Positions 2-37,665 of a stretch of 37,665 nucleotides of DNA are shown here, piece after piece. A program made the position numbers and the translations under genes. The stretch is from a virus, in the IMG/VR virus record IMGVR_UViG_3300029263_000815, positions 1-37,665 of that record. The stretch is one strand, 5' to 3'. How positions within the stretch are numbered: the first letter of the stretch is position 1; each line of letters opens with the position of its first letter. The notes beneath the pieces were generated by a model. It ran no database searches, was not told the origin of the DNA, and was given only the letters and a program-made list of their open reading frames with translations.

Positions 2-598
2 ATTAAAATCGAGTCTGAACGTGCCAGTATGGACCTTGCTGAAGAGTTTGGCGAACCTTTGTGGTGTGTCGGCACTGGCATGCGTAATACTCATCTTAGG
101 GCTATTGCTCCTACCGTTAGTAACAGCAAGCTTAGTGGTAATGTATCTCCTGGTATTGAGCCTTGGGCTGCCAATGTATTTACTGAGCAAAGTGCTAAAG
201 GTACTTTTATCAGAAAAAACCCAACATTAGAAAATGTTTTAGCAAAATATAATTCAAATAATAATGACACGTGGAATAAAATATTACAAGACGGAGGATC
301 GGTACAGGATATAAATTGTTTAACTGAAGATGAAAAAGAAATATTTAAAACATTTAAAGAGATTAATCAATTAGAATTAATTAATCAAGCAGGTATAAGG
401 CAACAGTATATAGATCAAAGTGTAAGTTTAAACTTAGCTTTTCCTAGTGTTGCCACACCTAAGTGGATAAATAAAGTACATTTTGAAGCCTGGAAAAAAG
501 GTATTAAAACCTTATACTATACTCGGACTGAGTCAGTGTTACGTGGAGATATTGCTGAACAAGCAATGGATGAAAGCTGTCTTAGTTGTGACGGATAA
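2..598 (+). CDS. nrdA: Ribonucleoside-diphosphate reductase large (alpha) subunit, class I, C-terminal part
   Basis: The protein reduces ribonucleotides to deoxyribonucleotides together with a radical-generating beta subunit, supplying dNTPs for phage replication. The frame is open to the left edge, so only about the last 199 residues are present and the start lies outside. Visible signatures are SPGIEPWAANVF, the GTFIRKNPTLE segment, and KTLYYTRT. The adjacent tyrosines in KTLYYTRT match the radical-transfer pair Tyr730-Tyr731 of E. coli NrdA. The C-terminus DESCLSCDG carries a CxxC pair as expected for the swinging redox tail. It is the only gene here read rightward and it converges on the virion operon. 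I see no intein or frameshift in the visible part. The beta subunit is not in this window and is probably further left. Family assignment is firm; class Ia versus another class I subtype is not decided. Confidence 0.93.
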   Translation: MKIESERASMDLAEEFGEPLWCVGTGMRNTHLRAIAPTVSNSKLSGNVSPGIEPWAANVFTEQSAKGTFIRKNPTLENVLAKYNSNNNDTWNKILQDGGSVQDINCLTEDEKEIFKTFKEINQLELINQAGIRQQYIDQSVSLNLAFPSVATPKWINKVHFEAWKKGIKTLYYTRTESVLRGDIAEQAMDESCLSCDG

Positions 599-1613: not shown

Positions 1614-4600
1614 TTATAACTTTAGTTTTTTAAATTTTAATTTGTTAAACTTTAATTTGTTAAAATTAAGCTTACTATTGGACCTTGATTTCCGTTTAGA
1701 TCTTTTTGAACCAAATATTTTCTTTCTTTCTTTTTGTATTTTTTCTTCAGAAATCCAATCTAATTCCCATTTGGCCCAACCTAAAACAGTTGCAACTCTT
1801 TGCCACTCTTCATTGTCTGAATTAGAAGCTTCTTTTAAATTTTGTAGTTTTTTTATAGCTCTATCTAAAGGAAAATTAGTAGTTGCGCTTACAACTTGAC
1901 CACTTGCAAGCCAAGCTGGATTATCTAATGACCAACCTTTTTCAATTATTTCTTTTTTATTCCAATCCCATGTTCTACCTGCAGATCTTAGTTTACCTAT
2001 TTTAGAAGATACAGGAGGCGAAATATCTAATAATTCAATAGCCGCATCTTGAGCTTTACCACCTGAAGCTAGTTTCATTATTGCATTTTTTAATGCTGAT
2101 ATAGCAGCTCCATGAAATCCAATTCCTCTAAGTAAAGAATCTGCCATACCATTGACAATAGCAATATTCTTTTTTTCTTTTAAATTTTCTCTGGCTAAAT
2201 CTTCTCCTTCTTCTTCATCATCAAACGCTAATGCAAACAAAGCTTGCTGTAAAGCATTAAACACAACATTTTGAATCATACCATAGTATAATATTTTAGA
2301 AATATTAGTTTTATCATCTCCTCGGCGATTCTTAATGTCACTAGCAGCTTTTTGCATTAATCGAGCATATTGAGCTGGAGTGTTGGCAAAAGCTAATATA
2401 ATACGTCCTAAAGGACCAGCTTGTTGAGCACTAATTCTATCAGGTCTACTTGACTGTTGTGACTCTTCGGCTGTTTCTCTAAAATCTTGAAACGCTTGAG
2501 CTTCAGCATCTTTCTGAGACATGCCTTCTTTTAAATAAGATTTAAGTCTATTTCTATAAAATGTAGCTCCACCAGATGCTATAGCAAAACTATCTGCTAT
2601 TTGCGTAGGTAAAAATCCTAATTTTAAAACTTTATTAATAAAAGCTTTAGCTTTGTTTTTAGACTCAGCAGCTATTTCAGCAATATCAGCTTCACTTACA
2701 TTTATTTTTAAACCATTACGTCTTTGAATTAAATAATTAGAATTAATTAATTTAACAACATCACTCCAATATTGTGGTTGATTAGCAAAAGCAGTTGCAG
2801 CTTTTAATGGATTATTATCTGTAAAATTAACAAAATTAAAAGATGATATAGTTTGTAAAACAGCTGACTTATCGTTAAAAAACATAATAGAACCTACCGC
2901 TCCATTAATCCAATCAGTAAATCTACCAGTTAAACTGTCGCCTGGAAATGTTCTGTTGCTACCAGATTTCATTCTACCTAGTATGTTTTCTAAAGCACTT
3001 CTATAACCTTTACCATAAGAAGCTTCTAACTTGTTTAGATTTGTTTCATTAAAAACAGTATCTACGTTTTCTTGCCATTGTTTTAAGTATTTAGCTCTAA
3101 CAGTAGTGTTTAAACTAGACAGTAAGTCTGTTTGAATAGTACCAGCCAACCAACTGTCATCTGGTTTAGGATAACCATTTTCTTTATTAATATTGATTAA
3201 TTGCTCTGAAAAATTAATTAAATTAGAGTCGCTTTCTACGTATAGGTTTAATTCTTTTAAATCAGCTTTTGATAAACCAGGAACTTGCATGCCTTGTTTA
3301 GTCCAAGTATAAGCTCTCACAGCTTGAGCTACAGTGTATGGTTCTCCGGGTATTTTTTTATTTAAATCTTTTTTAGAAATACTTAAAACCTTTTTTAATC
3401 CCTTAAAATCATTAGCTAAGGAAACACTAGCATCGGATATTTCTACATTAGCTCTAGCAAAAGGATCTAAAAAGTTTTCTTTAATCCAAGCTATAGTAGC
3501 ATCTCCTTTTTTACCTTTTCCAGCAAAATATCTAGTTAAACCTACAAAGTCCTGAGCTGATGGTGGTATACCTAATAAATCAAACTTACCTTTACCTTTT
3601 CCAGCAATCTCTCCTTTAGATCTACCATATCTTTTTTCTGATCTTATACCTGTTGCATTTTCTAGTATATCATTAAAGTCTTGATCTAATTTTTCTCCTT
3701 TACTATCTTTAACTCTTGCCTCCATAGCTTGATTATCTAAATCAGCCATTTGATCAAGCATTTGTTTAGTAGTATCTTTAGGGTTTACATCTTGTTTAGA
3801 ATCTTTTATTAAAGCTTCATTGTATTTTCTTAAATCTACAAAGTTTTTATTGTTATTTATCTTAGCAGATAGCCAACCCATCTCTGATTGAATGTCTTCG
3901 CCTTTAGAAGATTTAGTTATAATTTCATTAAAAGTTTGAACATTGTCTGGATTACTAAATATTTTAGATTTGTTTTTAGCATCAAAAACATTTTCTGCAG
4001 CCTTCCTTGATTGATCAAATAAATCTTGTTTTAGCTTTATAGTAAAAACATCTAAAGCTTCTAAAGCTTTTTTACTAGCTATTCTATTATGAATAACTTT
4101 ATCAAGAGTTAAACCAGTTTCTAAATCTAATATTGATGATGCGGGAACTCCAGCTAGTAAAAACATAGCTTCTGAAACCATACCAATCTCAAACAGTTCT
4201 GGAATACTAGTTTTTCCTGCTGTTTCAATATCAAAATTAAGTCCTTTTGCAGCTAAACCTTTAGTTATAATTCCTTGATCTGCAGCTAATTGAATATCAG
4301 TATCTAATATTGTTTGTGTATATCTTGAAGAGTATAGCGGATAAAGAGTTTTAAATTTACCAGATTCAATACTTTTAAGAATGTTTATATTAAAATTTAA
4401 ACTTTGTATATTATGCTCTCTTTGAAAAAGATCTAAAACACCCTTAACAGCTTTATTATAACCAGGTTGCATGGAAACAGTCGTAACCACAGCACCTTGT
4501 CTAGGTATTCCAGCTGTTAAACTACTTTGTAATTGAAGTAGTTTAGAAATATTCTGAAGAGCTAATGTCTTGTTTGGAGCATTTGCGTAATAATCATTTA

Positions 4601-7600
4601 GTTTATTATAAAAATAATCTCTTGTGCCTTGTATTGCTTTTTTTCTGGCTTTTGTAATATATTTACTTGTAATTTTATCTGCTAGTTCTTTTTGTGCTTT
4701 TGCAGTCTTCGGATCATTAGCTTCTTTTATTAATTTTTCAGTACTAGCATAAGCTGGTGACAAAGAAACCGCTTGTTTTGGATTAAAAATGACTTCAATA
4801 GTTCCATCTTCTTTCACTTCAATTCCATTAAAATCAGTTATTTTATTATTTAAAACAAAGTTATTCTTTCTAAAATCGCTACCTTTTTTAGTAGATATAG
4901 CTTGTGGTACTTGTTTACCAGCGCTATTTTTTCGTGTTCCAGAACTATACATTGGAACCACTCCACCACCAAAAGTGCTACCAAACATAGATAATTCAAC
5001 AAATCTAGGATCTAAAGTATTAGTAAAATCTTGTGCAAATCCTAAAAACTGACTTTCACCTTCAAGAGTCATTAAATCTAGCATCTCAATATCTTGTTCT
5101 TTTGCAAACTGATTCATGTTTTTATATGAATCAAAATCAACTTTTACACCAGGAGAAGTTGCTTGAGAAATATTTTTCTCTGCTCTTAATTCTTTCGGTG
5201 TAATATCTAAACCAGATGTCTTCCAGTTTTGTTTTGTAACTTTTATAGCTGGACCTAAAAAATCTTTTTCATCCTTAGGTTTTCCCTTTATATAATCATC
5301 AATAATTGCATTTATATTTTGACCACTATAAGCCTCACTCCTTACGTGTATACCAAAATTATTTAATTCATTTACTTGAGCTTGAAGAGGTAGCGAAGAC
5401 TTTGACACAGCCTCTTGTTCTACATTTTTTCCAAAATCTTTTTTAACTTTATCAATAATGTTATCTACAGATTCTTGTCTACCTTCTTGATACTTATATA
5501 TTAAAGCAGGATCATTTAAAGTTTTAAAAGTTAAATCATCTGCAAGCGTTTCAGCCACACTACCTAATAATGAAGTTTTTCTAGTACCTCTTTTACTTGG
5601 TGCAATTGCTTGACCTACGAAATATTCAGCAAATTCTCTTTTACTTATTTTCTTTTTAATAAATTTAGGCGGTCCAGATTTATCATCAGCAATAAGTTTG
5701 CCTTCAATAAAACCATTTTTAACCATGTTGTTATAACCTCTTACTTCATCTACAGTTTGCCTATAAGGTGTACCATCTTCATTTAGTTTTTGTTCTGCAA
5801 ACTCTTTATAACGTTTGTTTATAATAGATTGAGGTAGAGCAGTGTATATATAATCAAAATTTGTTCTAATAAAATCTTCAAACTTAGGCGTTGTGTTTAA
5901 AAGCTTTTTTAATTCAGGACCAAGCTTTTTATTAAAACTTTCTAGCATTTTTGGCCTAAACTCATTTGTACCAATTAAATTTATATTATCTTTAAACGAT
6001 TGCTCTATAGTAGATTTAACTAAAGGTTCTAAATCTTTTCCGTTTAATATATCTTTAATTAAATTTCTTCTTTTTCTTTTAGGCTCTTGAGGTTTTTCAT
6101 CAACTAAAACATCACCTTCTAGGTCTGTAGAAAGTATAGAATTAGCTTCGTCTAACAAAGACTGATCTATTTGTATATCAATACCTAAATCATTAAGAGC
6201 GTTTAAAGATTTATTATAAGCTTGAGCCATTATCCAACCATCCATTGAATCGTTTTGTGTTGGTTCAAAATTCATTATATGAATTTCTAACTCTGTTTGG
6301 GCAAAGTCTAAATAAGTATCCATATCAAAACCATCTAATGTAGAAAACGCAGCTTTACCTGTTTTAGGTTGAGACCGTGTAGCATAAAACTTCATCAAAG
6401 GTTCATAATTTTTAGCAATTTCACGTGCTACTTTACCTTTAGATTCACCACCTTTATTAAATGCCTCAAGATTTTTTTGAAATAAACCATCAATTTTTGC
6501 TTTATTAGCTACAGGATCAAAACCAGCCTGTATTAAAACTTTAGAGTCTACGGTTCTTGCTCCTTCACCAATAGCTTTATTTTTTAAATATCCTTCAGCA
6601 GCTCTAGATAAATTACCTTTAGTTTGACCTTTGCTAAAATCCTGCAAAAAATTAAATGCTTGTCTACCGTCAGTAAAAGTATTGTCACCTGTAAAAGGTT
6701 TCATTATTTTGTTAAAAAATTGTAATAAAGTATCTCCTAAGTTTTTATTATAAGACACTTGACCATTAACCATTTTATCGCTTACTGCGTTAAAAAACTC
6801 TTCATATTGTGCCGCTGTGCTATATCCTTTTAATCCTAGCTCAGTATCTATTTGTTTAACAAGCTTAGAGTTGTTTTTATTTAAATAAGTTCTTAAAGCG
6901 TTATAACCTGTTTTAAAATCACCTGGGTTTGTACCTATAGCTCTACCTAAAACACCGTGTAAAATTTCATGACTACCAGTTGTACCATCCCATTGTTGTA
7001 GAGTTTTTTCTTGATTAACAAAAAACTCTTGAACTAGGGTACCATCTTTTTTATAATACTGTAAGTTTTCACCTTTTTTCCTTTTTAAATCATCAACTCT
7101 TTGATCTATTGTTTTGCCATCTGCAAAAGTAACCCCTTCACTTTGCAATTGTTCAAGTCTTTCTCTGTATTCGGTATCAATAGCTTTTTCATCTTTTAAT
7201 ACTCTACCATCTAAATTATCAACTTTAGCTATAGATTCTACTTGTTTAACTATGTTTTTAGCTAATTTTTCTTTTTGTGTATTTTCCCAAGTCTTTTGAC
7301 TGTTTTCAAATATTCTAGCGTTTTCATTTGTTTTTTCTGTAATTAGTTCGTTTTGAATATCTTTTTGCGATTGCGTTAACGTTTGATCATTTTTTAATGA
7401 AAGATTTGCATCACCTATTTGTTTAACATTTTTTGCGGTAGCTATTTGATCTTCCTTAGACATGTCTTGTATTATAGCACCTGCCAATCTTTTATTATTC
7501 TCAATTTTATTTTTTAATTTCTTAATTTCTTGAGCAACGGCTGGACTAGCCATTGTTCTATTAGCTACAACAAGTTTATTTAATCTAGCACCATCTTTTA

Positions 7601-8972
7601 TATTTTGTGCTGTCATTGCTAATGGTGTTAATCTTTCATCACGTAGTCTTCTGTTTTTATTGTTTATAGCGGTACCTGCAGACATACCACCACCAATTAG
7701 AGAACTGATTAAAAATGTATCAAAAACTCTTTTTGCTACACCGTTATAGTCAAATTCACCATCTTTATTGTAAAAATTATTTATTTTTCCTTCGGTAAAA
7801 GCGTAATCTATTATTCCATTAAATTCTTGAGCAGCTACTTCAGAAGTTCCTTCCCAAAAAGCACCTCCAGCAATAACTCTCATTAATCCTTTTGCAGCTT
7901 CTTCTGTTGGTTCTTTAAAACTTTTTATTAATCCTTTAGCTAAACCTCTTGTAACAGTTTCACTTGCTAGCTCTACACCACCTTGAACTAATGCAGTCCC
8001 ATACATGCTCCAACCTCTGTCTTGAGGACTAGCTTCGCTTAATTTTTCATAAGCACTACCCGTAGCGCTTGCGCCTAATAAAACCATACCTGCTGGCCCC
8101 ATAAATGCCATAGCAACAGACGGAGCTGCCTCAACTACACCTTGAACAGTTTGATCAGCGGCTACTCCAAAATTAAGAGCATACAAGTTTTCACCAATAG
8201 TGTTGTCATAATCTCCTCCAGTTGTTTTAAAGCTTTCAGTAGCTTCTTGAAACTCATCATAACTTTTTTCTCTTTCTAAAAACGCTTTTTTTCCTTTTCC
8301 TGAAATTCCAGGGGTTTCGTTTGCGATCTCAACAAATAAATTTTGATATGAAATTCTTTCGTTAGGAGTTAAGTCAGGTTGATATAAATCAAGATAAGCT
8401 CCACTTACTGTATCATAAAAACCTTTTCTTAAATCTATATCTATAGATTCATAAGTTCCTACTAAAACATCGGATAATCTTGCTACTTTATCTATAGCAA
8501 AAACATCATTAACAAGAGCTCCAACTGTTTCTGCAGAGTTAACAGCTTTAAGAGCTTCAAAACCTAATTTTAAATTATCAGTAAAACTTAATGCATTTTC
8601 TTCTGTTTGTTCTTCTTGTTCTTCTACTACTTCTAATGGATTAAAATCATCTGTTATTAAACCAATTTCTTCCGCTTTTTTAATTCCGTTATCTATAGGA
8701 TTTAAAACTTCAATTTTTTCTTCTGATAAATCCGAAGAAATAACTTCCGAAGGTAACTCCGTATCGGACGCTATGTCTTCTCCTGCAGTCGCATCCTCTA
8801 CTACAGGCGTTGTCTTTCCTGGCTCAACAGCATCTTGTTCTTCAACTTGTTTTAAAGCTTTAAACTCTGCTTTTTTAATATCAATTTGAGCTTGAATTTC
8901 TTCTTTTGATAACCCTTCTTCGGTTAATTTATCAATGAGATTTTGTAATTCTTCAATTTGTTCTTTATCCAT
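1614..8972 (-). CDS. Giant internal virion (DNA-ejection) protein with embedded HEILH metallopeptidase motif
   Basis: At 2452 residues this is the largest gene, the third of a 262/694/2452-residue series at the end of the virion module. The N-terminus is a charged helical hairpin followed by an acidic, low-complexity linker (about 45-115). Hydrophobic, glycine-rich segments occur near 280-305 and 425-440 and again near 2225-2250; they could insert into membrane. A zinc-peptidase motif HEILH lies at 668-672, with a candidate third ligand in YEEFFNAV (Glu724/725). Most of the rest looks helical. The C-terminus ends in short Asn-Lys-Leu repeats. By order, size and composition it resembles T7 gp16-type ejection proteins and the polyvalent giant proteins of marine phages. 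T7 gp16 carries a lytic transglycosylase; I see none here, so a peptidase may replace it. Function is inferred. Confidence 0.7.
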   Translation of the reverse strand: MDKEQIEELQNLIDKLTEEGLSKEEIQAQIDIKKAEFKALKQVEEQDAVEPGKTTPVVEDATAGEDIASDTELPSEVISSDLSEEKIEVLNPIDNGIKKAEEIGLITDDFNPLEVVEEQEEQTEENALSFTDNLKLGFEALKAVNSAETVGALVNDVFAIDKVARLSDVLVGTYESIDIDLRKGFYDTVSGAYLDLYQPDLTPNERISYQNLFVEIANETPGISGKGKKAFLEREKSYDEFQEATESFKTTGGDYDNTIGENLYALNFGVAADQTVQGVVEAAPSVAMAFMGPAGMVLLGASATGSAYEKLSEASPQDRGWSMYGTALVQGGVELASETVTRGLAKGLIKSFKEPTEEAAKGLMRVIAGGAFWEGTSEVAAQEFNGIIDYAFTEGKINNFYNKDGEFDYNGVAKRVFDTFLISSLIGGGMSAGTAINNKNRRLRDERLTPLAMTAQNIKDGARLNKLVVANRTMASPAVAQEIKKLKNKIENNKRLAGAIIQDMSKEDQIATAKNVKQIGDANLSLKNDQTLTQSQKDIQNELITEKTNENARIFENSQKTWENTQKEKLAKNIVKQVESIAKVDNLDGRVLKDEKAIDTEYRERLEQLQSEGVTFADGKTIDQRVDDLKRKKGENLQYYKKDGTLVQEFFVNQEKTLQQWDGTTGSHEILHGVLGRAIGTNPGDFKTGYNALRTYLNKNNSKLVKQIDTELGLKGYSTAAQYEEFFNAVSDKMVNGQVSYNKNLGDTLLQFFNKIMKPFTGDNTFTDGRQAFNFLQDFSKGQTKGNLSRAAEGYLKNKAIGEGARTVDSKVLIQAGFDPVANKAKIDGLFQKNLEAFNKGGESKGKVAREIAKNYEPLMKFYATRSQPKTGKAAFSTLDGFDMDTYLDFAQTELEIHIMNFEPTQNDSMDGWIMAQAYNKSLNALNDLGIDIQIDQSLLDEANSILSTDLEGDVLVDEKPQEPKRKRRNLIKDILNGKDLEPLVKSTIEQSFKDNINLIGTNEFRPKMLESFNKKLGPELKKLLNTTPKFEDFIRTNFDYIYTALPQSIINKRYKEFAEQKLNEDGTPYRQTVDEVRGYNNMVKNGFIEGKLIADDKSGPPKFIKKKISKREFAEYFVGQAIAPSKRGTRKTSLLGSVAETLADDLTFKTLNDPALIYKYQEGRQESVDNIIDKVKKDFGKNVEQEAVSKSSLPLQAQVNELNNFGIHVRSEAYSGQNINAIIDDYIKGKPKDEKDFLGPAIKVTKQNWKTSGLDITPKELRAEKNISQATSPGVKVDFDSYKNMNQFAKEQDIEMLDLMTLEGESQFLGFAQDFTNTLDPRFVELSMFGSTFGGGVVPMYSSGTRKNSAGKQVPQAISTKKGSDFRKNNFVLNNKITDFNGIEVKEDGTIEVIFNPKQAVSLSPAYASTEKLIKEANDPKTAKAQKELADKITSKYITKARKKAIQGTRDYFYNKLNDYYANAPNKTLALQNISKLLQLQSSLTAGIPRQGAVVTTVSMQPGYNKAVKGVLDLFQREHNIQSLNFNINILKSIESGKFKTLYPLYSSRYTQTILDTDIQLAADQGIITKGLAAKGLNFDIETAGKTSIPELFEIGMVSEAMFLLAGVPASSILDLETGLTLDKVIHNRIASKKALEALDVFTIKLKQDLFDQSRKAAENVFDAKNKSKIFSNPDNVQTFNEIITKSSKGEDIQSEMGWLSAKINNNKNFVDLRKYNEALIKDSKQDVNPKDTTKQMLDQMADLDNQAMEARVKDSKGEKLDQDFNDILENATGIRSEKRYGRSKGEIAGKGKGKFDLLGIPPSAQDFVGLTRYFAGKGKKGDATIAWIKENFLDPFARANVEISDASVSLANDFKGLKKVLSISKKDLNKKIPGEPYTVAQAVRAYTWTKQGMQVPGLSKADLKELNLYVESDSNLINFSEQLININKENGYPKPDDSWLAGTIQTDLLSSLNTTVRAKYLKQWQENVDTVFNETNLNKLEASYGKGYRSALENILGRMKSGSNRTFPGDSLTGRFTDWINGAVGSIMFFNDKSAVLQTISSFNFVNFTDNNPLKAATAFANQPQYWSDVVKLINSNYLIQRRNGLKINVSEADIAEIAAESKNKAKAFINKVLKLGFLPTQIADSFAIASGGATFYRNRLKSYLKEGMSQKDAEAQAFQDFRETAEESQQSSRPDRISAQQAGPLGRIILAFANTPAQYARLMQKAASDIKNRRGDDKTNISKILYYGMIQNVVFNALQQALFALAFDDEEEGEDLARENLKEKKNIAIVNGMADSLLRGIGFHGAAISALKNAIMKLASGGKAQDAAIELLDISPPVSSKIGKLRSAGRTWDWNKKEIIEKGWSLDNPAWLASGQVVSATTNFPLDRAIKKLQNLKEASNSDNEEWQRVATVLGWAKWELDWISEEKIQKERKKIFGSKRSKRKSRSNSKLNFNKLKFNKLKFKKLKL
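1626..1670. repeat. Three imperfect 15-bp tandem repeats at the 3' end of the giant gene
   Basis: Units at 1626-1640, 1641-1655 and 1656-1670 share a TTTGTTAAA-type core. In the coding frame they give NKLKF-like pentapeptides just before the stop codon. This looks like slippage-type expansion of a basic tail. Confidence 0.75.
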
Positions 8973-11928: not shown

Positions 11929-13806
11929 TTAATATGATGATTGTGAAATATTTGAAGAAACGGCAAATAATTCTTTTTTACCATAACCGCCAGCGCCTGA
12001 TTTATTATTATTTAATGTCAATGTTGTTTCAGCGAAGAAACCTTTAACTCCTGACACATTTTGACCAAATAAAATTTCACCATTTTGTGCATCAGTATTA
12101 TTTATTAAATTAGCAAAATATTTATTTTCTTTTCTTTTAAAATTATTTACAAATATATTAGACTCTAAAGATTCTAAACTAATAGGTTGAAAATATTTAA
12201 AAACCGGTAAAGCAACCGCAGCAATGTCTGTATTAAGTGTAGTTGGTGTGATTGCTGAATAAACTCTTGAAGCCTTAAAAGATGTCATTTCCCATTCAGT
12301 ACCACCTTCATATTCGATTGTTTTAAAATTTTTAACAATAGAAGGATTAGAATTTAAAACTAAAGTAACTTTAGAATCATATGTAGTATTGTAAAAATTA
12401 GAATATTTATTAGCGTTGTTTGGATTTAGCTTATGATGTTGCCATATAGATGATCCTAATGGTTGTATGGAGAAAAAATTTGCTCCAGAACTTAACATAT
12501 CACCAGGTTTAAAACTTAAAAAACTTGTCCATCCTAGAACAGTTTCGTCAAAAGCAATAGTTCTGTAGTTACCATCAGTTTTTTGAATAGACAATATGTA
12601 ATTTTTAGTATGCATGTCCCAAGCGCCAACAATTTTATTTACAGGTTGAGAAAGGTTTGTTACGTTACTAATACCAGATAGTTCATCTCTAAAAAAATCA
12701 TGCATACCATATGAAGATATTTCTGTTATACCATCTCTTGATAACCTTAACACGCAGTTTCTTTTTCTGTCTGTAAAATACTTTCTATAACCATATACAG
12801 CAAAACTTTTTGGATCTTTAGAAATTCCATAAAGCCCAGCATAAGGAATTATCTGACCTATTACAACGTTACTAGCCGTACTTAAAGGAACCCCTTCTGC
12901 TGAATATATAGCATCTTTGTCTATTAATGCTCTACTTACTTTTTCTTCTTGAAATATAATTAAATTATTATCTTCTGCGTATAATTTTTGTATAGAAGCG
13001 TTTATAGGATCAACAGTTTTAACTATGTCTTCACCTATAGAAAATTGATTACTATTGTTTATGCCGGTTCTAGAATTGTAAATTCCAGAATATATCATAG
13101 AACTTAATCTATGTTGCTGCTGTGGATTATCTTCTACAATAAAAGCTCTTACACCTAAATCTACCGTTGTGTTGTTAAAACCACCTCTTATTCTTGATTC
13201 TTCAATATACCAATCGTTTACTGTGCTTCCAGCGTAACCCGAAGGAATATAAGTAAAATCATTTATATTAGTAAAGTTTAATATATCATCAAGTGCAACG
13301 TTTTGTGAAGAATCTATAAAGACTTGAGTTGTTCCATTAACATTAAAAGTATAATTAATAGTTTTAACAACTGAACTAAACGGATTAGTAAGATTAGTTA
13401 CGGTTTGTCCAGTTCCAACTTTTTTGTTTGGATTTATTGTTAATGCTGTGCTTGTGCTAGCTGCAGAAGCTTCTGCTTGAAAAGTTAACACTGTACCAAC
13501 ATTTAACTCTGTAGAAATTAGAGGAGCTATGTTAAATATTTGTGTAGATTCTACCCCTGCTACAGTTACAGGTCCATTAATATTACCAATTATTACACCA
13601 TCAACTAAAACAGCATCCCCATTACCCGATCCCGTAACCCCATACTGAATATTAGCATTAGGTAATCTTAATCCAAATGTTGTAGCACCTTGCGGAACAA
13701 CATCAGAGGTTTCTCCACTTGATACCGTACTACGTATTGGTTGTATACTTTTTATTCTCTTTAGCCAAAAGGTATTATAAAATTTTAATTCAAGTGTTGC
13801 CGCCAT
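11929..13806 (-). CDS. Tail nozzle / stabilization-type protein, 625 residues
   Basis: The protein is beta-rich. Its central part (about 215-460) carries segments that I recognise from the tail stabilization proteins of crAss-like podoviruses. Examples are IQKLYAEDNNLIIFQEEKVS, YGISKDPKSFAVYGYRKYF and CVLRLSRDGITEISSYGM followed by HDFFRDEL. These proteins are compared with P22 gp10 and T7 gp12, beta-propeller proteins that form the tail nozzle. The N-terminal third is Thr/Asn/Gly-rich and probably an inserted beta domain. The upstream 1725-residue gene carries the usual N-terminal signature of the same family, so the nozzle may be split across two genes here. Virion location is near certain; exact position in the tail is inferred. 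Confidence 0.72.
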   Translation of the reverse strand: MAATLELKFYNTFWLKRIKSIQPIRSTVSSGETSDVVPQGATTFGLRLPNANIQYGVTGSGNGDAVLVDGVIIGNINGPVTVAGVESTQIFNIAPLISTELNVGTVLTFQAEASAASTSTALTINPNKKVGTGQTVTNLTNPFSSVVKTINYTFNVNGTTQVFIDSSQNVALDDILNFTNINDFTYIPSGYAGSTVNDWYIEESRIRGGFNNTTVDLGVRAFIVEDNPQQQHRLSSMIYSGIYNSRTGINNSNQFSIGEDIVKTVDPINASIQKLYAEDNNLIIFQEEKVSRALIDKDAIYSAEGVPLSTASNVVIGQIIPYAGLYGISKDPKSFAVYGYRKYFTDRKRNCVLRLSRDGITEISSYGMHDFFRDELSGISNVTNLSQPVNKIVGAWDMHTKNYILSIQKTDGNYRTIAFDETVLGWTSFLSFKPGDMLSSGANFFSIQPLGSSIWQHHKLNPNNANKYSNFYNTTYDSKVTLVLNSNPSIVKNFKTIEYEGGTEWEMTSFKASRVYSAITPTTLNTDIAAVALPVFKYFQPISLESLESNIFVNNFKRKENKYFANLINNTDAQNGEILFGQNVSGVKGFFAETTLTLNNNKSGAGGYGKKELFAVSSNISQSSY

Positions 13807-23092: not shown

Positions 23093-24598
23093 TTAGTTTT
23101 GGAATAATACGAAATTATTCGCAGCTTGAGTAACCAAACATCTTTCAGATAACCAGTTAACTTGCATAGCATCTAAGTTAGTAGTGTAAGCACCACCAGC
23201 AGATCCTGTGATCCAGTTTTTGTATCTTCTGTCTTCTGTTTGTGAAGCTCTATATCTAACGTGTAAGAATGGTCTTCTTATGTTAGTACCTAATTGTTGG
23301 TCATAAACAGTTGACGTTCCAGCAGGTATTAATACACCTTCAATATTACTTACAGCAACAGCACCTCTTGTAGAAGCGTCGTTTAAGTATTTCCAGCTAG
23401 TTTTGTAGAAGTCATAAGAACCTCTTCTAAATCCAGAAAAACCTAAATTAAGCGCCATGTCTTCAGAGTTTTCAAATAAACCATAAGCAGTACCTCCAGC
23501 TTGTCCAGAAGAAATTTGCCCTAGCATATCATCAAAATCTAAATCAAGTCCTCTATTTAAGAAAAGCATATTTTCTTCGATAGCTCCTTGAGTATCAAGA
23601 TTTTTAAGTACTTGATCAAAGTCAGAAATACCTGTACCTCCAGAGAAGCCAGCCATCACATTACCTCTTGCTTGAATAGCAGAGAAAAGACCTTGAGATC
23701 CATAAGCATTGATAGAACCAGCAGCGTTAAATGCACCGCTAAATCCTTGAACCTGTGCTTGTTGAGCTTGGAAACTTTGTCCACCAGCTCCAGTAGCTAA
23801 TTCACCTTCTACCATTGCCATTTCTAAATAGTCATCAAATCTTAGTCTCGTTTCAGACTCAGACTTTAGATACCATAAGTATCCTGATGTACCATCTTCT
23901 GTAGCAACTTCTACCCAACCGATTTGAGCCATATCAGAACCATTTATTTCAAATGAATCTTTTATGATAATTGGTTGATTAGAAAATTGAGTGAATGAAG
24001 GTTGTATAGATTTATAAGATCCAATGGCTAGTCCATTATTTACAGGTCCAGCAGATCCTTTAGCAAAAATAGAACCATATACAAACATTTTAAGGTTTGT
24101 AGCTCCAACTCCTAAAGCATCCCAGTTTTGAGCAGTAAAAGGATAAGCAATAACTCTTTGCCCTATACCAGCTGGTAAGCTAGTAGATACCACACCTTTA
24201 AGTGTAACACCTGTAGTAGGATTCATTACTACAATAGTATCATTTGGAAAAATAGCATTTGATACGACTGGAGTTCCACCTAAAACAAATTCTAGTTGTG
24301 CAACACCTGCACCACCAGTTTGATTCACATTGTTGTAAGACACATGTAATCTATTTTGTTCCGACCAAATTACTTGATCAGATGTCATTGGCATTTCAGC
24401 GCCAACCATACGTAGAAAACCGTTTAAAGTTCTATTTCCGTATCTCTCTACCTCAGCTTCATAAACTTCAGGTAAGTATTGTTGTGCAAAATCATTTGCA
24501 TTTGCACCACCAGCATTAAACGCTAGGTAATTGCTTTGGAGTGCTAATTGAGTTTGAGAAGGTACTATACTTCCAAACACAGGGGTAATTTGTCCCAT
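23093..24598 (-). CDS. Major capsid protein (HK97-fold), 501 residues
   Basis: Length, position after portal and scaffold, and composition fit the HK97-type major capsid protein of a podovirus. The N-terminal region FAQQYLPEVYEAEVERYGNR followed by LRMVGAEMPMTSDQVIWSEQ is a stretch I associate with capsid proteins of marine and crAss-like Bacteroidota phages. The protein is acidic and rich in Gly/Ala/Gln near 255-300 (GGQSFQAQQAQVQGFSG), a likely flexible or alpha-helical spine segment. It ends LVTQAANNFVLFQN with no obvious protease-cleaved delta domain at the N-terminus. The leader before the ATG is A-rich without a Shine-Dalgarno sequence, and a strong hairpin follows the stop codon, as expected for a highly expressed gene. 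Confidence 0.85.
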   Translation of the reverse strand: MGQITPVFGSIVPSQTQLALQSNYLAFNAGGANANDFAQQYLPEVYEAEVERYGNRTLNGFLRMVGAEMPMTSDQVIWSEQNRLHVSYNNVNQTGGAGVAQLEFVLGGTPVVSNAIFPNDTIVVMNPTTGVTLKGVVSTSLPAGIGQRVIAYPFTAQNWDALGVGATNLKMFVYGSIFAKGSAGPVNNGLAIGSYKSIQPSFTQFSNQPIIIKDSFEINGSDMAQIGWVEVATEDGTSGYLWYLKSESETRLRFDDYLEMAMVEGELATGAGGQSFQAQQAQVQGFSGAFNAAGSINAYGSQGLFSAIQARGNVMAGFSGGTGISDFDQVLKNLDTQGAIEENMLFLNRGLDLDFDDMLGQISSGQAGGTAYGLFENSEDMALNLGFSGFRRGSYDFYKTSWKYLNDASTRGAVAVSNIEGVLIPAGTSTVYDQQLGTNIRRPFLHVRYRASQTEDRRYKNWITGSAGGAYTTNLDAMQVNWLSERCLVTQAANNFVLFQN

Positions 24599-36132: not shown

Positions 36133-36576
36133 TTATCGGTTTTTATCTTTATTTACGTTGTTTATGGATGTAATCATTACTTTATCTATGTAACTTTTAC
36201 CCTTCATTATTTTATTTCGTGCTGTAGACGTTGGTATGTCTTGTTTACCAAGCATAATACGATACATACGACTTATTAGTTGTTTACACTTAAAGGAAAC
36301 TTTATAGATATTATACTTTTGAGTTGTACGATTATGTGTTCTCCATACGATTATCCAACCTTCTTTAAGTAATCTGTTCCAGCGTCTGTTGTCCCAACTG
36401 TAAGAATATGTACCGATTTTAAAATCTTCTCTTGTAAAAAGATCCATGCAATCGAAATAAATTAATAATTCAAGATCTGCATCATTTAATTCATTATTTT
36501 TACAGGCCCATTTTCTAATGATCCGATAATGTTTTAAAAGATTTAAATCTTTAATATCGCTAGCTTCTAGTCTCAT
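36133..36576 (-). CDS. Putative winged-helix protein, 147 residues
   Basis: The helical segment LNDADLELLIYFDCMDLFTR, then YSWDNRRWNRLLKEGWIIVW and KYNIYKVSFKCKQLISRM, gives the helix, recognition-helix and beta-wing layout of MarR-like winged-helix proteins. The C-terminal ~30 residues are basic. It overlaps GroES by ATGA and so is co-translated with the chaperonin genes. It could be a transcriptional regulator, or a virion protein using the same fold. I recall close relatives as hypotheticals in marine phages. The fold is inferred from pattern only. Confidence 0.6.
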   Translation of the reverse strand: MRLEASDIKDLNLLKHYRIIRKWACKNNELNDADLELLIYFDCMDLFTREDFKIGTYSYSWDNRRWNRLLKEGWIIVWRTHNRTTQKYNIYKVSFKCKQLISRMYRIMLGKQDIPTSTARNKIMKGKSYIDKVMITSINNVNKDKNR

Positions 36577-36833
36577 ATAACAACAACTACGTGTGCCATA
36601 TTAACTACTTGATATATTTCTTTTTTTATTTCTATTTGATGAGTATTATTTTTATCAAAATAAATAACATCACCTTTTTTGATTCCTATAACACTGCTTC
36701 CAGCTGACAATATCATGCCTTCAGCATATCTTATATCCTCTCTTTGTTTTTCTGCTAAGAATAGACCACCTTTTGTTTCAGATACCCCTTGCTTAGTCAT
36801 GTTGACTATTAAATTACTACCTATTGCTTTCAT
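36573..36833 (-). CDS. groES: Co-chaperonin GroES (Cpn10), 86 residues
   Basis: GroES caps the GroEL chamber and helps enclosed proteins fold. The protein has the Cpn10 order: IGSNLIVNM first strand, mobile loop at about 13-27 (TKQGVSETKGGLFLAE) with the GGLFL GroEL-binding element, IKKGDVIYFD, and a final AHVVVVI strand. It is about 11 residues shorter than E. coli GroES. Its start overlaps the end of groEL by 17 bases, so the order groEL-groES is reversed relative to the usual bacterial groES-groEL. The next gene overlaps by ATGA. Confidence 0.9.
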   Translation of the reverse strand: MKAIGSNLIVNMTKQGVSETKGGLFLAEKQREDIRYAEGMILSAGSSVIGIKKGDVIYFDKNNTHQIEIKKEIYQVVNMAHVVVVI

Positions 36834-37665
36834 TAACTCTAAGATTATTGATTACACAATCGGTTGATAAAATAGTAGTAGCTACAGAAGCCGCATTTCT
36901 TAATGCACTTTTTGTTACCAGTAAAGGATCTATAATTCCGGACTTAATCATATTTACCATATTTCCTGTAACAACGTTTAACCCTTCTCCTTCTGTTGTA
37001 GGTATTTTGTAGTTCTCTATACCTGCATTTGCTAATATGGTCTTAAACGGCGCCTTAATAGCGTCTAATAAAACCTTTTCACCTTCAGAAGTTACTAGTA
37101 TGTTTTGTGCAGCGTTTAAAAGAGCAATACCTCCACCTGGGACAATACCTTCTTTTATAGCGGCTTTAGTAGCACATATAGCGTCTTCGACTCTATCTCT
37201 TTTTTCTTTTAATTCAACTTCAGAATTAGCGCCAACTTTTACAACAGCAACTTTACCTGATAACCTAGCTAATCTTTTTTCATAGTTAACTATTATAGCG
37301 CCATGCTTAGCTGTTTTAAGTTTTTGCTTTAAATCTTCAATTAATTTTTTTATTTCCTCAGAGCTTTCTCCAACGTGCAAAATAGTTTCTGTTTGTGTAC
37401 TTACACTTTTTAAACACTCACCAAGTTGTTCTGGTTGTATTAAATCTATGTCATCACCTAAATCTTCATTAATAACAGTGGAACCAGTAAGCAAAGCTAA
37501 GTCTTCTAAAGTTTCTTTTTTATTTACGCCATAAGTAGGTGCATCAATTACATTAACTTTAATATTACCTTTAATTTTATTCATTGCTAAGGCTGACATA
37601 ACCTGTTGGTCAATATCAGCTATAATTAATAAAGATCTATTAATTTTTATAGCATATTCTAAAAC
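36817..37665 (-). CDS. groEL: Chaperonin GroEL, C-terminal half (cut by the window edge)
   Basis: The frame is open to the right edge, so 282 residues of the C-terminal half are present and the start lies outside. The edge segment VLEYAIKINRSLLIIADI aligns with the apical-domain strand of E. coli GroEL (PLLIIAED). Visible intermediate and equatorial motifs are RVEDAICATKAAIKEGIVPG, containing the Asp equivalent to Asp398 needed for ATP hydrolysis, then GGGIAL, and KSALRNAASVATTILSTDCV near the end. The protein stops at VINNLRVNESNR and lacks the Gly-Gly-Met tail of most bacterial GroELs. Apical-domain substrate-binding residues fall partly at the edge. A divergent phage chaperonin acting with the adjacent GroES is likely. 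Confidence 0.92.
   Translation of the reverse strand, partial: VLEYAIKINRSLLIIADIDQQVMSALAMNKIKGNIKVNVIDAPTYGVNKKETLEDLALLTGSTVINEDLGDDIDLIQPEQLGECLKSVSTQTETILHVGESSEEIKKLIEDLKQKLKTAKHGAIIVNYEKRLARLSGKVAVVKVGANSEVELKEKRDRVEDAICATKAAIKEGIVPGGGIALLNAAQNILVTSEGEKVLLDAIKAPFKTILANAGIENYKIPTTEGEGLNVVTGNMVNMIKSGIIDPLLVTKSALRNAASVATTILSTDCVINNLRVNESNR

Follow-up and report, generated by a model that had tools for sequence, protein, structure and literature searches.

Known phage chaperonins and the groEL–groES locus

The carriage of GroEL–GroES by phages is widespread and has been recorded before. Marine et al. reportedly found in 2017 that viral GroEL/GroES is widespread in virioplankton and that gene order is linked to GroEL phylogeny. 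The pair, the order groEL–groES and the loss of the GroEL tail already occur in deposited phages, namely the Manatee Spring podovirus ctfjg026 (MW202828, 60.9 kb; genes annotated as groeL and chaperonin 10 kd subunit) and Flavobacterium phage elemo (NC_062741), both of which also have a roofless GroES. The small subunit gene comes first, unlike in these phages, in Callevirus, immuto and a 39-kb Manatee phage. Phage T4, by contrast, uses the host GroEL together with its own Cpn10 protein gp31; this protein lacks the roof loops, its mobile loop is longer and its identity to GroES is 14%, yet it is still counted as a GroES homologue (PMC6318259). The GroEL–gp31 chamber is 8% larger, which is generally held to permit folding of the ~56 kDa gp23 (PMC6318259). 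The chaperonins of phages EL (gp146), OBP and AR9 are likewise phage-encoded and GroEL-like, with single-ring forms reported (PMC5934643, PMC9598537), but they do not need a co-chaperonin and are 22–26% identical to the family described here.

The window, by which we mean the whole stretch of 37,665 nucleotides analysed here, covers the part of a podovirus-like genome that encodes the virion (terminase, phrog_6681, 3.4e-162; portal, 1.5e-150). As the original prediction had stated, a complete groES and a groEL half are encoded with overlapping ends and are transcribed in the order groEL–groES (Table 1), their PF00166 and PF00118 matches both exceeding the curated Pfam cut-offs. This order had been noted as reversed relative to bacterial operons; phages of several genera with deposited genomes already show it. 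The 17-nt overlap is consistent with translational coupling, which we infer. The groEL piece comprises the apical part and the intermediate and equatorial C-terminal segments, its 5′ end being lost at the contig end. Because the record ends at 37665, the missing GroEL half is a truncation only; nothing of the record lies to the right of this point, where the full gene was to be sought, and full-length GroELs come from relatives, one of which (L003, from IMG/VR) has a full-length GroEL 84% identical to that of the window.

Residues D398, GGG(414–416) and D495 of the window GroEL align with E. coli GroEL and the protein stops at about E. coli position 530 without a GGM tail, which bears out the reported retention of the ATPase Asp (D398) and GGG and the absence of the tail. 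In a full-length relative, residues 7–508 match GroEL structures at 8.5e-112, so that Cpn60 homology runs along the whole chain, with equatorial, intermediate and apical domains. The window GroES combines the PF00166 match with a mobile loop (ETKGGLFL) that carries the GG-hydrophobic motif GGLFL; its AF2 model, with a pLDDT of 86.4 that is low only in this loop, matches Cpn10 structures at 4e-6 in Foldseek, in line with a Cpn10 barrel bearing a mobile loop.

Table 1. Features of the window, with the matches or observations on which each rests
Feature	Position	Strand	Evidence
groEL, C-terminal 282 codons	36817..37665	(-)	PF00118 E=2.9e-27 (profile 256-487 of 490); phrog_5725 E=7.6e-64
groES, complete, 86 aa	36573..36833	(-)	PF00166 E=7e-9
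groEL/groES overlap, 17 nt	36817..36833	(-)	ORF coordinates
147-aa gene, function unknown	36133..36576	(-)	phrog_17028 1.2e-8; 4-nt overlap with groES end
ES2, co-chaperonin-like, 201 aa	30642..31247	(-)	phrog_13932 'co-chaperonin GroES' 8e-26; two genes upstream of terminase
Candidate major capsid protein, 501 aa, 54 kDa	23093..24598	(-)	phrog_13704 2.7e-89 (head and packaging); after terminase and portal
625-aa protein	11929..13806	(-)	Crassvirus muzzle C-terminal domain PF25729, 4.1e-9
2452-aa (273 kDa) protein, virion block	1614..8972	(-)	No PHROG match at E<=0.01
Ribonucleotide reductase large subunit, C-terminal part	29..598	(+)	PF02867 1.4e-35

The pair lies inside a late gene block that comprises tail fibre, lysis, packaging and virion genes. 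Its original placement at the head of the virion operon does not hold, because in the relatives the genes immediately upstream of groEL are co-directional and include tail-fibre-like proteins of ~590–1500 aa; endolysin, holin, ES2, terminase and portal follow downstream. In the Manatee Spring podovirus, the overlapping groEL–groES flanks the endolysin, ES2, terminase and portal genes from the same side as in the window, whereas in elemo the pair is on the strand opposite the packaging genes. Elsewhere in the window, the muzzle-domain protein corresponds to a tail part common to crAss-like phages, found here outside Crassvirales, and the ribonucleotide reductase fragment is on the strand opposite the virion block. 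No tRNA was found in the window, and promoter and terminator scans of it gave background levels only.

Origin and conservation of the GroEL lineage

Of 600 candidate stretches in an IMG/VR scan, at least 565 were confirmed as relatives; the 80 best loci (69–84% identical) were used for comparison. All 80 of these best relatives have an overlapping groEL–groES in the order seen in the window, with overlaps of 4–23 nt, as had been proposed for the window itself; this retention of a cognate groES bears on the use of a separate lid, whose binding to GroEL is predicted. The 147-aa gene lies 3′ of groES throughout the family (83 matches among the fetched relative loci), and its product is a possible functional partner of the pair. 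Complete GroELs of the relatives measure 513–521 aa and have an intact apical domain, the absence of which would have spoken against function. D52, D87, TTT89–91, D398, GGG414–416 and D495 are invariant in 67 of 67 distinct full-length relative GroELs, the C-terminal ones being seen in the window GroEL itself. The dN/dS values between the window and five close relatives are ~0.15–0.2 for groEL and ~0.05–0.13 for groES, and both genes are therefore under purifying selection. By sequence, the pair is catalytically competent.

We next consider where this GroEL came from. GroEL is a cellular family, and the GroELs of DAC16 and Vibrio phages group among bacterial ones, as would fit a recent capture of the groE genes from a host or a chimeric assembly of phage and bacterial DNA. 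However, the closest bacterial GroELs in a one-genome-per-species collection are only ~42% identical and come from unrelated phyla. In a 62-row tree, the GroELs of the phage family, with the window inside, fall on one side of a 100/100 branch with a stem of 1.68, rather than within one bacterial genus; deep joins among the long phage branches, being unreliable, were left out of account. Both readings are further contradicted by the same synteny in 80 independent contigs (the best 80 relatives) and in MW202828. Tree and synteny together rule out recent capture or chimerism, to which we assign a negligible probability; the GroEL lineage is phage-specific and the phage-borne pair is old. Since several other phage GroELs (immuto, DAC16, Vibrio phages) lie near or among the bacterial ones, GroEL was probably acquired by phages more than once.

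The terminase large subunit (TerL) of the window is 63% identical to that of the Manatee Spring podovirus, but GroES is only 35% identical between the two and GroEL has strongly diverged. Further TerL relatives, at 30–45% identity, belong to Flavobacterium phage elemo, Maribacter phage Panino, and Cellulophaga and Tenacibaculum phages, which makes the Flavobacteriia the probable host group of this marine phage. GroEL identity with elemo is ~38%.

Lid, tail and ring contacts

In E. coli GroES, the segment GNGRILENGEVKP lies between strands and forms the roof hairpin. The window GroES has the short turn AGSSVIGIKKGD instead; alignment with E. coli GroES and T4 gp31 reveals that the roof beta-hairpin is missing from the whole family, and the AF2 model of the window GroES contains no strands at residues 45–55. 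A roofless GroES is common to the family, elemo, the Manatee Spring podovirus and T4 gp31, whereas the roof is kept in phage immuto. DAC16 carries an unannotated roofless GroES-like gene in normal ES–EL order; rooflessness and gene order are therefore separable. In Maribacter phage Panino, a gene for a roofless GroES follows groEL (L177:19129-19395; PP540027 68128-68394) but carries no annotation beyond hypothetical. An ORF overlapping the groEL end in crAss phage cr111_1 was considered as a GroES and rejected, as no Cpn10-like sequence could be recognized by eye.

The loss of the GGM tail, put forward as a special trait, proved not to be distinctive, because the tail, absent throughout the family, is also found in 0 of 12 other phage GroELs and is lacking in 11 of 31 bacterial ones (present in 20). 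The inter-ring segment, measured from GGG to GxxDP, spans 65–68 residues in the family versus 77–84 in bacteria, a loss of 10–15 residues at the inter-ring face; it is partly shortened in elemo and of bacterial length in MW202828. E434 is deleted in 67 of 67 full-length relatives, and position 109 is K in 42 of them. We take E434, position 109 and the inter-ring segment to be ring–ring contact positions in E. coli GroEL. The loss of these residues suggests a weak ring–ring contact, and on this prediction the double heptameric ring is uncertain. On the apical face that binds substrate, every member of the family carries L234Q, V263A and V264M; Y203 has become H in most of them, and F204 and L237 are retained. 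These replacements (L234Q, V263A, V264M, Y203H) could alter binding and count against reading the pair as a working chaperonin.

On balance, we consider it likely that the pair is the phage's own working group I chaperonin, with an enlarged or open-topped cage folding virion proteins near 55–60 kDa. The Pfam and PHROG matches, the invariant ATP site, the retention of the pair in 80 of the 80 best relatives, purifying selection, the missing roof with its gp31 precedent, the shortened inter-ring segment and the late-block location all argue for this reading. In the cycle that we infer, for its assembly, coupling, client, cage volume and ring number alike, both subunits would probably be translated from a single, coupled late-block transcript; GroEL rings would capture virion proteins in the unfolded state and be closed by ATP together with the phage GroES, so that the protein folds inside, and ATP hydrolysis (D398) would reset the GroEL ring. 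Because the GroES roof hairpin and the GroEL C-terminal tail are absent, the closed cage would be expected to have more room or an open top, in the manner of T4 gp31, and would suit proteins near the 55–60 kDa limit, such as the capsid candidate.

The nature of the client can be narrowed by size. A GroEL-type cage takes about 60 kDa (PMC5780408), and the 185 and 273 kDa proteins therefore cannot be caged, which removes the suggestion that the pair is specialized for very large structural proteins. The 54 kDa capsid candidate is a more plausible client, although naming it is a guess. The client need not be a virion protein at all, because groES and groEL sit among DNA replication genes in Callevirus phages; the groE genes of immuto similarly follow DNA polymerase. 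The pair might accordingly fold mainly replication or host-takeover proteins, or prop up host folding under infection stress, but in the window family its neighbours on the same strand are tail-fibre genes on one side and lysis/packaging genes on the other, and we regard such a role as improbable here.

A second co-chaperonin-like protein

Besides GroES, the window encodes ES2, whose homologues are annotated as Cpn10/GroES in elemo, Calle, Panino, phi18:3 and phi19:3; the Panino gene annotated as co-chaperonin GroES (PP540027) is one of these ES2 homologues. PF00166 scores above its cut-off in the ES2 homologues of phi18:3, phi19:3 and Calle. In ES2 of the window, the C-terminal half is Cpn10-like by profile (2.8e-5; shuffles 0.38 or more), whereas the N-terminal half gives no Cpn10 profile signal (E=0.58, as for shuffles) and is supported by fold only (AF2/Foldseek, pLDDT ~75). 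The top PDB match of the AF2 model (pLDDT 75.5) in Foldseek is the chloroplast Cpn20 chain 7ekq_R, over the full length (2.3e-5, TM ~0.5), and among viral models the best match is the phi18:3 'Chaperonin cpn10'. Thus modelled, ES2 probably consists of two Cpn10 folds in tandem and would resemble Cpn20, with which it shares the predicted presence of two Cpn10 domains in one chain; the two proteins differ in that they are 14% identical and ES2 is recognizable by sequence in its C-terminal half only.

The predicted Cpn20-like fold, the profile match of the C-terminal half and the mixed rings formed by chloroplast Cpn10 and Cpn20 (PMC5780408) raise the possibility that ES2 is a true second lid and partners the phage GroEL, by itself or in rings mixed with GroES. 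We find this possible but doubtful. ES2 lacks the mobile-loop GG motif as well as sequence support for its N-terminal half, and its gene is kept beside terminase in the window family, elemo (where it adjoins terminase), Callevirus, Panino and Baltivirus phages, even where a phage GroEL is missing. Moreover, phi18:3 and phi19:3 encode no GroEL, yet have both ES2 and a short Cpn10; ES2 is therefore not tied to phage GroEL, which rules it out as an obligate partner. ES2 may be a lid or a virion/packaging protein with a Cpn10-like fold.

The new elements here are the GroES without a roof, as in T4 gp31, the loss of residues at the inter-ring face of GroEL and the additional co-chaperonin-like gene; in the literature searched, we found no discussion of this combination of a roofless lid, a phage GroEL trimmed at its inter-ring face and a further, Cpn20-like protein. 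Taken furthest, these features could form a self-contained, remodelled system, in which a weakly paired or single-ring, tail-less GroEL would be served by a roofless lid and a Cpn20-like double lid, acting as alternatives or in mixed rings to give different cages for different virion proteins, with a tandem that would have arisen separately from that of chloroplasts. We think it rather unlikely that the whole of this scheme holds. If ES2 is Cpn20-like, viruses would have their own version of an arrangement that has been called unique to chloroplasts (PMC5780408). For the phages themselves, the findings mean that what many uncultured marine phages supply is a complete folding machine and not a lid alone. 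The natural loss of roof, tail and inter-ring contacts across a wide family, and in part in the culturable elemo, offers a direct test of which parts of GroEL and GroES set cage size and ring pairing.
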